Origin: Marasmitruncus massiliensis
GTDB taxonomy: Bacteria; Bacillota; Clostridia; Oscillospirales; Ruminococcaceae
Length of the DNA: 64,000 nucleotides
Reading direction: 5' to 3'
Assembly: GCF_900186535.1 (NCBI RefSeq)
Contig: NZ_FYDE01000004.1
Coordinates: forward strand, 558,001 to 622,000
The position numbers were made by a program, and so were the translations under genes. Positions 56,664-60,581 of this stretch are shown in pieces. Numbering within the stretch: position 1 is the stretch's first letter; each line of letters starts with the position of its first letter. Below the pieces are notes generated by a model. That model searched no databases, was not told where the DNA came from, and saw nothing but the letters and a program-made list of their open reading frames with translations.

Positions 56664-56689
56664 AAAAAGCGGCATTGGGGGCGGTTCAT

Positions 56690-57214
56690 ATGACGCGGAC
56701 AACTGGGAATATCAGCTACCAGTTAACTTATAAAAAGGTGAAAAACCTGAATATGCGGGTGTATCCGGACGGAACTGTGTGGGTATCCGCTCCGAAGCGG
56801 GTCCCGGTTTCGGAAATCGACCGGTTTGTGGAATCGAAAGCAAACTGGCTTGCAGCTGCGCGGGAACGGCTGCGCGGCCGGACAACGATTCCTAAGGATA
56901 CGCACTCCAACCAGGAATGCCTAGCGCTGTTTACAATGATCAGCGACCGGATTTATCCGATGTTTGCTGCAAAAATCGGAGAAAAGCCGGAACTGCGCGT
57001 ACGCTGGATGAAATCCCGATGGGGTGTATGCTACCCGGCAAAACATCGCATTACGCTGAATCAGCAGCTTTTTGAAAAGCCGCTGGCAGCGGTAGAATAT
57101 GTGGTGATGCATGAATATATGCACTTCCTGTATCCCAACCATCAAAAAGGATTCCATGCGGCGATGGCAAAAGCAATGCCTGACTATCAGGAAAGGCGCA
57201 GTCTCTTAAAATGA
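56690..57214 (+). CDS. YgjP-type M48-like metallopeptidase
   Basis: The 174-residue protein has a SprT/YgjP-like layout: YQLTYKKVKNLNMRVYPDGT early, RVRWMKSRWGVCY, LNQQLFEKPLAAVEYVVMHEYMHFL (in parts) with the zinc motif HEYMH near residue 143, and a third His in PNHQKGFHAAM. It likely is a cytosolic zinc protease of unknown substrate. ATG 56690 has GGGGGCGG upstream. Confidence 0.88.
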   Translation: MTRTTGNISYQLTYKKVKNLNMRVYPDGTVWVSAPKRVPVSEIDRFVESKANWLAAARERLRGRTTIPKDTHSNQECLALFTMISDRIYPMFAAKIGEKPELRVRWMKSRWGVCYPAKHRITLNQQLFEKPLAAVEYVVMHEYMHFLYPNHQKGFHAAMAKAMPDYQERRSLLK

Positions 57215-57268: not shown

Positions 57269-57297
57269 TTGTCAAAATATTAACAATATGATAAAAT
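57269..57297 (+). promoter_or_regulatory. Promoter upstream of the hydrogenase-sensor operon
   Basis: TTGTCA (57269-57274) and TAAAAT (57292-57297), 17-base spacer, giving a leader of about 160 bases. Confidence 0.45.
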
Positions 57298-57464: not shown

Positions 57465-57710
57465 ATGGAAATCTATATCTGCATTGGGAGCTCCTGCCAT
57501 CTCAAAGGCTCCTACGATGTCATCAAAGCATTTAAAGATTTAATTGCGCAAAATCATCTGGAAGACAAGGTCAGCCTGAATGCTTCGTTCTGTTTGGGAT
57601 ACTGCCAAAACGGTGTGTCCGCCAAAATCGACGGCCAGCTTGTAACCGGCCTCAGCCGGGACAATGCGGAAGATGTGTTCAATAAGATGGTTCTGAAGGA
57701 GCTGCGGTAA
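57465..57710 (+). CDS. Thioredoxin-like 2Fe-2S protein
   Basis: The 81-residue protein has the four Cys of a [2Fe-2S] thioredoxin-like ferredoxin (CIGSSC near residue 6, CLGYC near 43), as in the NuoE-like C-terminal part and hydrogenase HydC-type subunits. It lies 4 bases before the [FeFe]-hydrogenase-like gene, so it likely passes electrons to or from that protein. AACGGGGGAAACG precedes the ATG. Confidence 0.88.
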   Translation: MEIYICIGSSCHLKGSYDVIKAFKDLIAQNHLEDKVSLNASFCLGYCQNGVSAKIDGQLVTGLSRDNAEDVFNKMVLKELR

Positions 57711-57714
57711 ACTT

Positions 57715-59406
57715 ATGACGGACGTTTTATCCTTAAAAAAAGCCAACTGTAAGAATTGCCATAAATGTATCCGTGCCTGTCCGGTCAAGTCCATCCGCTT
57801 TGCGGATAACCAGGCGAAAATTATTAACGAGGAATGCATTCTCTGCGGACGGTGTGTCGTGGCCTGTCCTCAGAATGCGAAGAAGGTGCGCAACGATCTG
57901 ACCGAAGTGATCGGCGCGATCGGCAGCGGGCGCCGGGTCATTGCGACTTTGGCCCCATCCTTCATCAGCGAGTTCCCCGTTTCCGGTATTGAAAAGATGG
58001 AAGCCTGCCTGAAAGAGCTGGGCTTTTTCGCCGTACGCGAAACCGCAGAGGGCGCTTATATTGTCAAAAGCGAGTATGAGCGGATGATCCGGGAAAACAG
58101 TCAGGAGGTCATCATCTCGTCCTGCTGCAGTACGGTTGTCACGCTGATCCAGAAATATTACCCCGCGGCAATCCCGTTTATCGCGCCGGTCCTCTCGCCG
58201 ATGATGGCGAGCGCCCGGCTGATCAAGCAAGACTATCCGGACGCTTATGTCGTATTTATCGGGCCATGCATCTCCAAAAAGAAAGAGATGGAAAAAGTCC
58301 CCGGCTATGTGGACTGTGTGCTGACGTTTGACGAGCTGGAACAATGGTTTAAGCAGCGCGGAATTGTTCCGGAACGGGAAGCTGTTGCGGAACAGGAGGG
58401 GCGCGCGTCCCGCTTTTTCCCGCGCGTCGGCGGTATCATCAAATGTATGCACACCGAGAATACCGGCTGGAACTATCTCGCGGTGGACGGGGTGGAAAAC
58501 TGTATCCTTGCGATTGAGGAGATTCAGCGCGGCGGGCTCAAAGGCTATTTTGTCGAGATGAATGCCTGTACCGGCAGCTGCATCAACGGTCCGTCTACCA
58601 AAGCCTATCAGGAAAATTTTCTGCGCAGCCATGTGCGGGTGGACAGCTACGCCCAGCCGGATGAACGCAGGAAACCGGATTTCAGTGCCGAGGCACGGTT
58701 CGGGCTGCTGCGCTCCATCCCCAATGAATTTGTGCATGAAGTGCAGCCCCCCGAAAGCGCAATTACGGAAATTCTCGCAAAGATGGGAAAAACAAAGCCG
58801 GAGCACGAGCTCAACTGCGGCAGCTGCGGCTATCCGACCTGTCGGGAAAAAGCGAAAGCGGTGTATAACGGCAAGGCGGACATTACCATGTGCCTGCCGT
58901 TCCTGCTGGAGAAGGCAGAATCCTTTTCCGATAACGTGTTTAATGTCAGCCCGAACGCGATTTTTGTTCTGGACGACAAGCTGTGCATCCAGCGGATGAA
59001 TATGCCGGCCTGCCACCTGTTCAATGTCAGCGCGCAGACAATGGTGGGCTCGATGATTATTGACCTGATGGACCCCACGGACTTCCAGAACGTACTGGAC
59101 ACCGGAAACGATATCATAGACAAAAAACTGTATTTGTCGGAATACAATAAGTACATTGAACTGACAGTCGTTCTGGACGGGGAACATAACCTGCTGTTCG
59201 GTATCATCAAGGATATTACGGGCGAGCAGAGGCGCCGTGAGAAATATCGGGAAACCCGTGCGCAGACGATTGAAATCACCGACAAGGTAATTGAAAAGCA
59301 GATGCGGATTGTGCAGGAAATTGCTTCCCTGCTCGGTGAAACGACTGCGGAAACGAAAATAGCACTTTCAAAGATCAAGAACACGGTGCTCTCGGAGGAT
59401 GAATGA
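57715..59406 (+). CDS. Sensory-type [FeFe] hydrogenase with PAS domain (HydS-like)
   Basis: The 563-residue protein has two 4Fe-4S ferredoxin motifs at its start (CKNCHKCIRACP, CILCGRCVVACP), an [FeFe]-hydrogenase catalytic domain, an extra CGSCGYPTC...C iron-sulfur domain (residues about 368-395), then a PAS-like domain (about 405-510) and a coiled-coil end. The three H-cluster motifs are changed: L1 is SSCCS (residues about 135-139), L2 is GPCISKKKE (about 183), L3 is EMNACTGSCINGP (about 281). That is the putative sensory group (C/D) rather than the fast metabolic enzymes. The start at 57715 is an ATG 4 bases after the previous gene. Confidence 0.9.
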   Translation: MTDVLSLKKANCKNCHKCIRACPVKSIRFADNQAKIINEECILCGRCVVACPQNAKKVRNDLTEVIGAIGSGRRVIATLAPSFISEFPVSGIEKMEACLKELGFFAVRETAEGAYIVKSEYERMIRENSQEVIISSCCSTVVTLIQKYYPAAIPFIAPVLSPMMASARLIKQDYPDAYVVFIGPCISKKKEMEKVPGYVDCVLTFDELEQWFKQRGIVPEREAVAEQEGRASRFFPRVGGIIKCMHTENTGWNYLAVDGVENCILAIEEIQRGGLKGYFVEMNACTGSCINGPSTKAYQENFLRSHVRVDSYAQPDERRKPDFSAEARFGLLRSIPNEFVHEVQPPESAITEILAKMGKTKPEHELNCGSCGYPTCREKAKAVYNGKADITMCLPFLLEKAESFSDNVFNVSPNAIFVLDDKLCIQRMNMPACHLFNVSAQTMVGSMIIDLMDPTDFQNVLDTGNDIIDKKLYLSEYNKYIELTVVLDGEHNLLFGIIKDITGEQRRREKYRETRAQTIEITDKVIEKQMRIVQEIASLLGETTAETKIALSKIKNTVLSEDE

Positions 59407-60581
59407 TGGACCGACTGTTTATGGAAAACGGCTACGTCAGCCTCAATAAGGTAGGGGAAGAACTGTGTGGGGACCGGGTCATGGTAAAAAACCGGACGCC
59501 GGAAGGCGACTTTACGATGGTGCTGGCGGACGGGCTGGGCAGCGGCGTCAAAGCAAACATCCTTTCCACGCTGACGGCGCAGATCATCGCTACGATGATG
59601 GATTCCGATATGCCGATTGAGGAATGTGTTACGACCATCGCGCAGACCCTGCCGGTCTGTTCGGTGCGGCAGGTCGCTTATTCCACCTTTACGATTATCA
59701 AGGTCTACCGCAACAAGGATGTTTATCTCATCCAGTATGACAATCCGGATGTTGTCCTGCTGCGTGACGGCAAAAATTACGATTACCCCAAATATGAAAA
59801 AATCATATCCGGCAAAAAAATTTTTGAATCCCGCTTTCAGATTCATCTAGGAGACCTGTTTCTGCTGATGAGCGACGGCGTCATTCACGCCGGCGTCGGC
59901 CAGTCGCTCAACTTCGGCTGGGAAAGGCCGAATGTAATTGAATATCTGGAGGAGCGTTACCGCCCTGACATGTCGGCAAAAACGGTGGCAAAACTGGTGA
60001 GCGGTGCCTGCCATGATTTATATATGGGTAAGCCTGGGGACGATACGACGGTCGGGGTGCTGCGCATCCGCGAACGGCAGCTGGTGAATCTGATGATCGG
60101 CCCGCCGGTCAATCCGGAGGATGACGAAAAGGTGATGGAGCTTTTCTTTTCCAAGGATGGGAAGACCATCGTCTGCGGCGGGACAACCTCCACACTGGCC
60201 GCCCGTTTCCTGAAAACCGCGGTAAAAACCAAAATTGATTATCTCGACCCGAGCATCCCCCCCATCGGATACATAGACGGCGTGGACCTCTGCACCGAAG
60301 GAGTGCTTACTATGGGACGCGTGGTGGAACTTGCCAAGCGGTACGCCTCGTCTCCAAGCGCCAACTGCGACTGGGAGGGGAAACGCGACGGAGCTTCTCT
60401 CATTGCCAAAATGCTGTTCGAGGATGCGACCGATGTCAACCTGTTTGTAGGCCGGGCGATGAACCCGGCCCATCAGAATCCCAACATGCCGATTGATCTC
60501 TCTATTAAACTCCGCTTAATGGAAGACCTGCAAAAACATCTGGAAAAGATGGGAAAGCACGTCAAAATGAGCTTTTATTAA
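59403..60581 (+). CDS. SpoIIE-type serine phosphatase with a C-terminal extension
   Basis: The 392-residue protein has an N-terminal PP2C/SpoIIE phosphatase domain (residues about 15-225: the metal-site ADGLGSGVKANIL, LLMSDGVIHAG and GDDTTVGVLRI) and a C-terminal region of about 160 residues (ELFFSKDGKTIVCGGTTSTL, then SIPPIGYIDGVDLCTEG) that I do not recognise. Its ATG overlaps the stop of the hydrogenase-like gene (ATGA). It likely removes phosphate from a target in response to the redox state or hydrogen. Confidence 0.88.
   Translation: MMDRLFMENGYVSLNKVGEELCGDRVMVKNRTPEGDFTMVLADGLGSGVKANILSTLTAQIIATMMDSDMPIEECVTTIAQTLPVCSVRQVAYSTFTIIKVYRNKDVYLIQYDNPDVVLLRDGKNYDYPKYEKIISGKKIFESRFQIHLGDLFLLMSDGVIHAGVGQSLNFGWERPNVIEYLEERYRPDMSAKTVAKLVSGACHDLYMGKPGDDTTVGVLRIRERQLVNLMIGPPVNPEDDEKVMELFFSKDGKTIVCGGTTSTLAARFLKTAVKTKIDYLDPSIPPIGYIDGVDLCTEGVLTMGRVVELAKRYASSPSANCDWEGKRDGASLIAKMLFEDATDVNLFVGRAMNPAHQNPNMPIDLSIKLRLMEDLQKHLEKMGKHVKMSFY

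Follow-up and report, generated by a model that had tools for sequence, protein, structure and literature searches.

The 64,000-nucleotide window analysed here (Marasmitruncus massiliensis, assembly GCF_900186535.1, contig NZ_FYDE01000004.1, positions 558,001 to 622,000) carries a trio of genes for a small [2Fe-2S] protein, a sensory-type [FeFe]-hydrogenase (HydS) and a SpoIIE-type (PPM) phosphatase. Open reading frame (ORF) calling placed them on the plus strand at 57465-57710 (81 amino acids, aa), 57715-59406 (563 aa) and 59403-60581 (392 aa), with a 4-base gap between the first two and a 4-base overlap between the last two, confirming the original prediction of three tightly joined genes; Pfam domains also bore out the products it had named, a [2Fe-2S] protein, a hydrogenase-like protein ending in a PAS domain and a SpoIIE phosphatase. 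We read the trio as a group C3-type (phosphatase-linked) putative sensor of H2 or redox state that gates the phosphatase of an ethanol/H2 fermentation switch, with a probability of about 0.6. The relatives cited in the features listed below are the best 80 among 177 that a contig search confirmed, a set that favours close relatives, and M353, M497 and C299 follow the numbering of C. pasteurianum CpI.

57269..57286, no strand: Rex-like palindrome TTGTCAAAATATTAACAA, putative operator (sequence match)
57465..57710, plus strand: thioredoxin-like [2Fe-2S] protein, 81 aa (C-terminal part of PF01257, E = 2.5e-8)
57715..59406, plus strand: HydS, sensory-type [FeFe]-hydrogenase with PAS domain, 563 aa (Pfam and alignments)
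57748..57867, plus strand: two N-terminal [4Fe-4S] motifs (C12, C15, C18, C22; C41, C44, C47, C51), invariant in 38 aligned sequences
58114..58131, plus strand: L1 motif ISSCCS, equivalents of C299 and of ligand C300 both Cys (Cys at both positions in 80/80 relatives)
58261..58269, plus strand: L2 motif GPC, M353 replaced by Gly (residue G183; Gly in 80/80 relatives)
58555..58581, plus strand: L3 motif EMNACTGSC, M497 replaced by Asn (residue N283; relatives with Ser 78/80, Asn 1, Tyr 1)
58810..58899, plus strand: C-terminal CX2CX4CX16C [4Fe-4S] motif (C368, C371, C376, C393), PF04060 (Pfam and alignment)
58939..59220, plus strand: PAS domain (PF00989 at residues 409-458 above cut-off; PF13426 at 413-502 weak, E = 0.047, below cut-off)
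59317..59358, plus strand: C-terminal motif EIASLLGETTAETK, strongly conserved in the alignment of 80 relatives
59403..60581, plus strand: SpoIIE-type (PPM) phosphatase, 392 aa (Pfam, alignments and fold match)
59502..60068, plus strand: predicted SpoIIE/PPM catalytic domain, residues 34-222 (PF07228, E = 8e-15)
60084..60578, plus strand: C-terminal domain of the phosphatase, 165 aa, strongly conserved; full-length matches from the class sample extend over it

Conserved features of HydS and the phosphatase

The Pfam matches of HydS comprised 4Fe-4S motifs, PF02906 (E = 8e-49), PF04060 (E = 5e-12) and the PAS family PF00989 (E = 2e-6), and the H-cluster ligands C138, C185, C285 and C289 were invariant in the window and in all 80 relatives. 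Together with the PAS domain, the CX2CX4CX16C motif and the replacement of M353 and M497, these ligands are features of the group C sensory type, whereas the C299 replacement that is typical, if not strict, for this group was absent, Cys being retained as in 80/80 relatives. The sensory-type changes that had been predicted for three motifs were thus found in GPC and in the Asn at the M497 position but not in SSCCS, which keeps its two cysteines, one of them equivalent to the proton-relay C299. Among the sensory sequences of HydDB only 17% keep Cys at this position (PMC10055695), which we suggest may largely be the phosphatase-linked subgroup. The score of HydS against the [FeFe] group B model (TIGR04105) was 216.7, below the NCBIfam cut-off of 450. 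The maturases HydE, HydF and HydG are all encoded in the M. massiliensis genome, so the H-cluster can probably be made, and six matches to the hydrogenase catalytic domain were found there. On the C-terminal side of the PAS domain, every position of EIASLLGETTAETK was kept in at least 66 of the 80 relatives, and most in at least 75; the segment is proposed as a candidate contact with the phosphatase.

In the phosphatase, D43, D158, D213 and D214, as well as D24 just N-terminal of the catalytic domain, were invariant in 63 sequences; we take D24, D43, D158 and D213/D214 to be the expected metal site, judging from the alignments. The structural model (mean predicted local distance difference test score, pLDDT, 86.5) matched the fold of PPM phosphatases, the best being 3pu9 and the phosphatase domain of B. 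subtilis SpoIIE. The expected metal-binding aspartates and the modelled fold argue for membership of the SpoIIE/PPM family, with phosphatase activity as the predicted function.

The last 165 residues of the phosphatase gave a confident model when folded alone (pLDDT 89.5), and their mean column identity was 72% in 45 sequences, with the conserved motifs GPP, GGTTS, TEGV, DGAS and NPAHQNP. At E up to 1, Pfam gave no match for this domain in the window copy and a few scattered weak ones for other members; its model had no PDB fold match with E < 0.1 (best E = 0.11), and a weak profile match to phosphoheptose isomerase was observed (E = 0.007). A domain so highly conserved is an object for further study in its own right.

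Linkage of the two genes across genomes

The phosphatase gene directly followed HydS in 79 of the 80 relatives, the exception (L075) being a contig that ends 118 bp past HydS. The two ORFs overlapped in 63/79 relatives, a count that partly reflects the chosen start, since the ORF starts of the relatives were set mechanically. In a sample of 391 genomes of the class, the phosphatase was found in 111 (E up to 1e-30) and HydS lay directly upstream in 109 of these; as exceptions, G096 had its HydS some 15 kb from the phosphatase on one contig, and G121 had no HydS at E up to 1e-80. Loss of the linkage in relatives, which would have spoken against the original prediction, was therefore not what the neighbourhood check returned, and the proposed tie between a sensory-type hydrogenase and a PPM/SpoIIE phosphatase held, the ligands, maturases and aspartates being present and the linkage strong. 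A homologue of the 81-aa protein ended within 1 kb upstream of HydS in 63 of the 76 relatives with at least 1 kb of sequence there.

Conservation of every H-cluster ligand and of the proton-relay Cys is what would be expected if HydS were mainly a slow catalytic hydrogenase or a redox buffer, with the phosphatase co-transcribed and not directly coupled to it; the PAS domain, the conserved C-terminal motif and the near-constant adjacency of the phosphatase argue against this explanation, which we consider very unlikely.

HydS-like matches were also observed in eight genomes that had no phosphatase (G056, G037, G093, G021, G036, G233, G302 and G057), all of them scoring below 350 bits and lying in frames of 765-891 aa, which perhaps represent fused signalling relatives. 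HydS and the phosphatase also occurred in L043, L065, L098 and L104, records labelled as Pelolinea, Spirochaetaceae and Treponema (labels of metagenome-assembled genomes). Pelolinea is a member of the Chloroflexota, and these occurrences suggest horizontal spread.

Rex-like sites, related systems and the proposed mechanism

The palindrome TTGTCAAAATATTAACAA overlaps the -35 box of the best promoter-like site (TTGTCA, 17, TAAAAT; 57269-57297) and was the only Rex-like match in the window, with 0.04 expected in shuffled sequence. The scan of M. massiliensis covered about 172 kb, made up of the window, about 93 kb surrounding the other hydrogenases, the maturases and the SpoIIAA/AB region (L021-L026), and, in L109, 15 kb in the vicinity of adhE; besides the palindrome it returned just two Rex-like matches, which start 98 and 65 bp upstream of the adhE start. 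Among the relatives, a Rex-like site was present within 300 bp before the trio in 14/80 (100 shuffles gave a mean of 0.17 and a maximum of 2), and 31 of 3697 tiles of 300 bp across the whole loci contained one. The published Rex consensus of T. saccharolyticum is TTGTTANNNNNNTAACNN, and predicted Rex sites precede both adhE and the hfsABCD operon in that organism (PMC5886521). Transcription of the trio is probably under the control of Rex (NADH/NAD+), jointly with adhE.

HydDB describes a group C3, 'Phosphatase-linked (putative)', with the role given as 'undetermined', whose members may sense H2 and regulate via serine/threonine phosphatases (PMC5037454). The trio resembles this group in having a sensory-type hydrogenase beside a Ser/Thr phosphatase, the genes overlapping in the window, and no difference of kind was found in the part of that source covered here, with the assignment made from gene linkage. 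Dephosphorylation controlled by H2 or redox state, as originally predicted, is therefore reasonable and has already been published as a proposal; the sensory role of such hydrogenases is called putative also in PMC8924675. In R. albus the hydS locus (PMC6776011; L095 is a locus of strain AR67) holds the same trio, with HydS 49% identical, but adhE, a kinase-like gene and a second hydrogenase lie alongside, whereas the trio of the window stands alone. Expression of the R. albus cluster was 111-fold lower in co-culture, which the authors ascribe mainly to the H2 level (PMC6776011).

The hfsABCD operon of T. saccharolyticum (PMC5707799, PMC11837493, PMC5886521) encodes a hydrogenase with a PAS domain (HfsB) and a protein homologous to serine phosphatases (HfsC), and a predicted Rex site precedes it, as a Rex-like site precedes our trio; it differs in including the hydrogenase gene hfsD, which is absent from the window, and HfsC is likened to the window phosphatase by its published description. 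More ethanol is made when hfsA or hfsB is deleted, the high yield was found to require the wild-type phosphatase gene hfsC and hydrogenase gene hfsD, and the authors suggest that regulation is also post-transcriptional (PMC5707799). By analogy, such genetic results would fit a phosphatase that is held back by HydS.

Other systems share parts of the anatomy. The B. subtilis proteins SpoIIE and RsbU have the PPM catalytic domain and fold in common with the window phosphatase but carry other regulatory parts, whereas the latter has its own 165-aa C-terminal domain and is encoded in an operon that lacks a STAS partner. T. maritima HydS (group C) shares the change of M353 to Gly, a replaced M497 and a PAS domain, with Ala at C299 and Ser at M497 where the window protein has Cys and Asn (PMC10055695). 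The group D protein TamHydS of T. mathranii has the same C-terminal CX2CX4CX16C cluster (PMC8163306, PMC13104023) but lacks a PAS domain and lies beside a histidine-kinase-like ATPase; M. massiliensis has a separate group-D-like gene (L021, labelled from its anatomy).

With the anatomy, the conservation, the linkage and the Rex-like sites observed directly, we infer a mechanism in which the H-cluster of HydS would bind H2, or would report electron pressure through the [4Fe-4S] clusters and the small [2Fe-2S] partner. This state would then be relayed, via the C-terminal FeS domain, PAS domain and EIASLLGETTAETK segment, to the neighbouring phosphatase, which would be restrained or released and would thereby change its activity toward a phosphoprotein of the ethanol/H2 switch. 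Rex would adjust the level of the system along with that of adhE, so that H2 and NADH signals would meet at one branch point. The path of the signal beyond the PAS domain of group C proteins is still at the stage of proposal in the portions of the literature covered; in the locus and its relatives, the evidence narrows the range of likely outputs to the control of fermentation. Although a system of this kind has already been catalogued, the neighbourhood evidence yields a short list of direct tests for the phosphatase target and a candidate pathway (Rex, adhE, the adhE-linked kinase-like gene and the HydS-linked phosphatase), for which a tractable ethanol producer would be suitable.

Several points weigh against a gated phosphatase of the fermentation switch. 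The retained equivalent of C299 would also suit a catalytically competent enzyme, and the C-terminal cluster of TamHydS was not reduced by H2 (PMC8163306, PMC13104023), which weakens a simple electron-wire model. No H2 response of any phosphatase was found in the covered parts of the cited literature, nor, in those of PMC5707799, a strain that separates the need for hfsC from that for hfsD in the hfsB deletion. At the locus, 66 of the 80 relatives had no Rex-like site within 300 bp, some of the operons starting further upstream. A hydrogenase or NuoE/F gene started within 2.5 kb past the phosphatase in 43 of the 58 relatives with enough sequence; in the window no hydrogenase gene follows it, an RpiR-type regulator gene being found there, so M. 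massiliensis lacks the output gene that usually lies at this place.

Candidate phosphatase targets and neighbouring genes

The protein encoded by the kinase-like gene is of the APH/RIO-like type (PF01636), and in loci of the R. albus type the gene sits between adhE and HydS. A unit attributed to Zheng (2014) reportedly joins a kinase, the phosphatase, a repressor, Aad, HydS and HydA2. An adjacent protein kinase is mentioned in a paper that cites that study (PMC5707799). Of the relatives, 54 had 5.5 kb or more of sequence upstream of HydS; adhE was found in 14 of these, a Rex-type gene in 13, the kinase-like gene in 12 and a LysR-type gene in 11.

We put AdhE forward as a bold candidate for the phosphatase substrate. 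According to this explanation, AdhE would be reversibly phosphorylated under the gating of H2, with the adhE-linked APH/RIO-like kinase phosphorylating AdhE or a partner and the HydS-controlled phosphatase reversing the reaction, a scheme that we regard as doubtful. In the class sample, core-type phosphatases co-occurred with the kinase-like gene (37/59 vs 52/332, p = 4e-13, uncorrected for ancestry; weak kinase-like matches in G049, G136 and G242 excluded), and the gene lay within 3 kb upstream of HydS in 27 genomes. It directly adjoined adhE in 20/20 phosphatase-negative genomes sampled (the 20 best-scoring of 46), while adhE was in view in 11 of 14 phosphatase-positive genomes where the kinase-like gene lies away from HydS (14 of 15 such genomes; G183, a partial match, was omitted). 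The kinase-like gene thus goes primarily with adhE and secondarily with HydS. Deletion of hfsB, moreover, raised the NADH-dependent alcohol dehydrogenase but not the NADH-dependent aldehyde dehydrogenase, both of them activities of AdhE (PMC5707799). Against AdhE phosphorylation stands the absence of the kinase-like gene from 68 of the 111 phosphatase genomes and, at E up to 1e-20, from all five Anaerotruncus genomes searched, in which the trio and its phosphatase are closest (the gene was present in 4 of the 14 genomes of that search), as well as its rarity with divergent phosphatases (6/52, fewer than elsewhere, p = 0.05; core and divergent types were split at 570 bits, and the partial matches G345, G042 and G062 placed with the core by hand). 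No evidence of phosphorylated AdhE, and no study testing AdhE as a substrate, was found in the covered parts of the literature searched.

The copy of the kinase-like gene in M. massiliensis also argues against AdhE phosphorylation. It lies just before adhE, both genes being on a different contig from the trio (L109), and its product (L109:7955-8704) carries Asn at the positions of the two catalytic Asp (HGN, NW), whereas both Asp were kept in 20/20 kinase-like relatives from HydS loci. The protein fell into an HGN-type clade with proteins from four other genomes (FastTree support 0.988, 13 sequences); the second Asp was kept in three of these four relatives but not in the second copy of an R. 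albus genome. Judging from these residues, the M. massiliensis protein may be an AdhE-linked pseudokinase, and any reaction that the phosphatase reverses in this organism may require a different kinase. Two of the HGN-type relatives, L151 and L157, also adjoin adhE. A broader form of the proposal, to which we give equally little credence, is that H2 would gate reversible phosphorylation in the ethanol branch: the phosphatase, held by the hydrogenase-like sensor, would undo the action of the AdhE-linked APH/RIO-like kinase on AdhE or an AdhE-bound regulator, and its 165-aa C-terminal domain would serve as a reader of substrate or ligand.

The SpoIIE family of the catalytic domain makes partner switching another candidate: in the manner of RsbU or SpoIIE, the phosphatase would dephosphorylate a STAS anti-sigma-factor antagonist, possibly SpoIIAA, and so free a sigma factor. 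At least one STAS match was obtained in 76 of 80 phosphatase-bearing handles searched, and a short STAS frame in 74/80 (79 genomes, since G396 and G237 have the same match coordinates and look identical); in M. massiliensis a STAS protein is encoded beside a SpoIIAB-type ATPase and an RsbW-like ATPase beside the group-D-like hydrogenase (L021). The RsbW-like ATPase of the group-D cluster, considered as a candidate for the opposing kinase, was found in 31/44 phosphatase-bearing vs 17/36 other genomes (p = 0.04) when 14 locus-reached genomes, hand-picked as trio carriers, were added (11/14 positive), but the class sample alone gave no significant enrichment (20/30 vs 17/36, p = 0.14; these genomes were chosen by handle number and kinship, and matches weaker than 1e-20 were counted as absent). 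The operon itself has neither a STAS gene nor an RsbW-like kinase, and the only STAS matches of the M. massiliensis genome were the one adjacent to the SpoIIAB-type gene and a 541-aa frame. No STAS match was obtained in G200, G209, G244 and G398, and only long-frame ones in G039 and G355, indicating that STAS proteins are usual but not required in phosphatase-bearing genomes. Partner switching is thus unlikely in our estimate. A target in sporulation, or SpoIIAA itself, was rated low on the STAS counts and on the occurrence of the same trio in R. albus and Pelolinea records, organisms that we take to be non-sporulating. The tie to spore formation and to an anti-sigma-factor antagonist that the original prediction implied found no support, the operon having no STAS gene and the neighbours and Rex-like site pointing to alcohol/hydrogen fermentation instead.

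A YgjP-like metallopeptidase gene (Pfam; window 56675-57214) is the upstream neighbour of the trio and the RpiR-type regulator gene its downstream one. Look-alikes of the metallopeptidase gene were recognised by eye in 6/6 Anaerotruncus loci (L027-L032); we know of no functional link between it and the trio. A relocated hydA2 was considered, and the best match of the genome to the downstream hydrogenases of six relatives (L023) was 37-39% identical and unconvincing.

The HydA of M. massiliensis (L021:5244-6986) reads TSCSP where most enzymes have TSCCP, and HydA1 of the solved structure 7q4v appears likewise as TSCSP in the alignment. The region L021:5244-13975 consists of divergent clusters, with the order NuoE, HATPase, 2Fe2S, NuoF and HydA on one side and, on the opposite side, a small protein, the RsbW-like ATPase, the group-D-like hydrogenase, a second small protein and a PHP-like protein. 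The labels NuoE/F, bifurcating HydA, PHP and group D, along with DRTGG for both small proteins, are tentative assignments of ours based on the sequences. M. massiliensis thus seems to encode two putative sensors, one of the C type and one of the D type.

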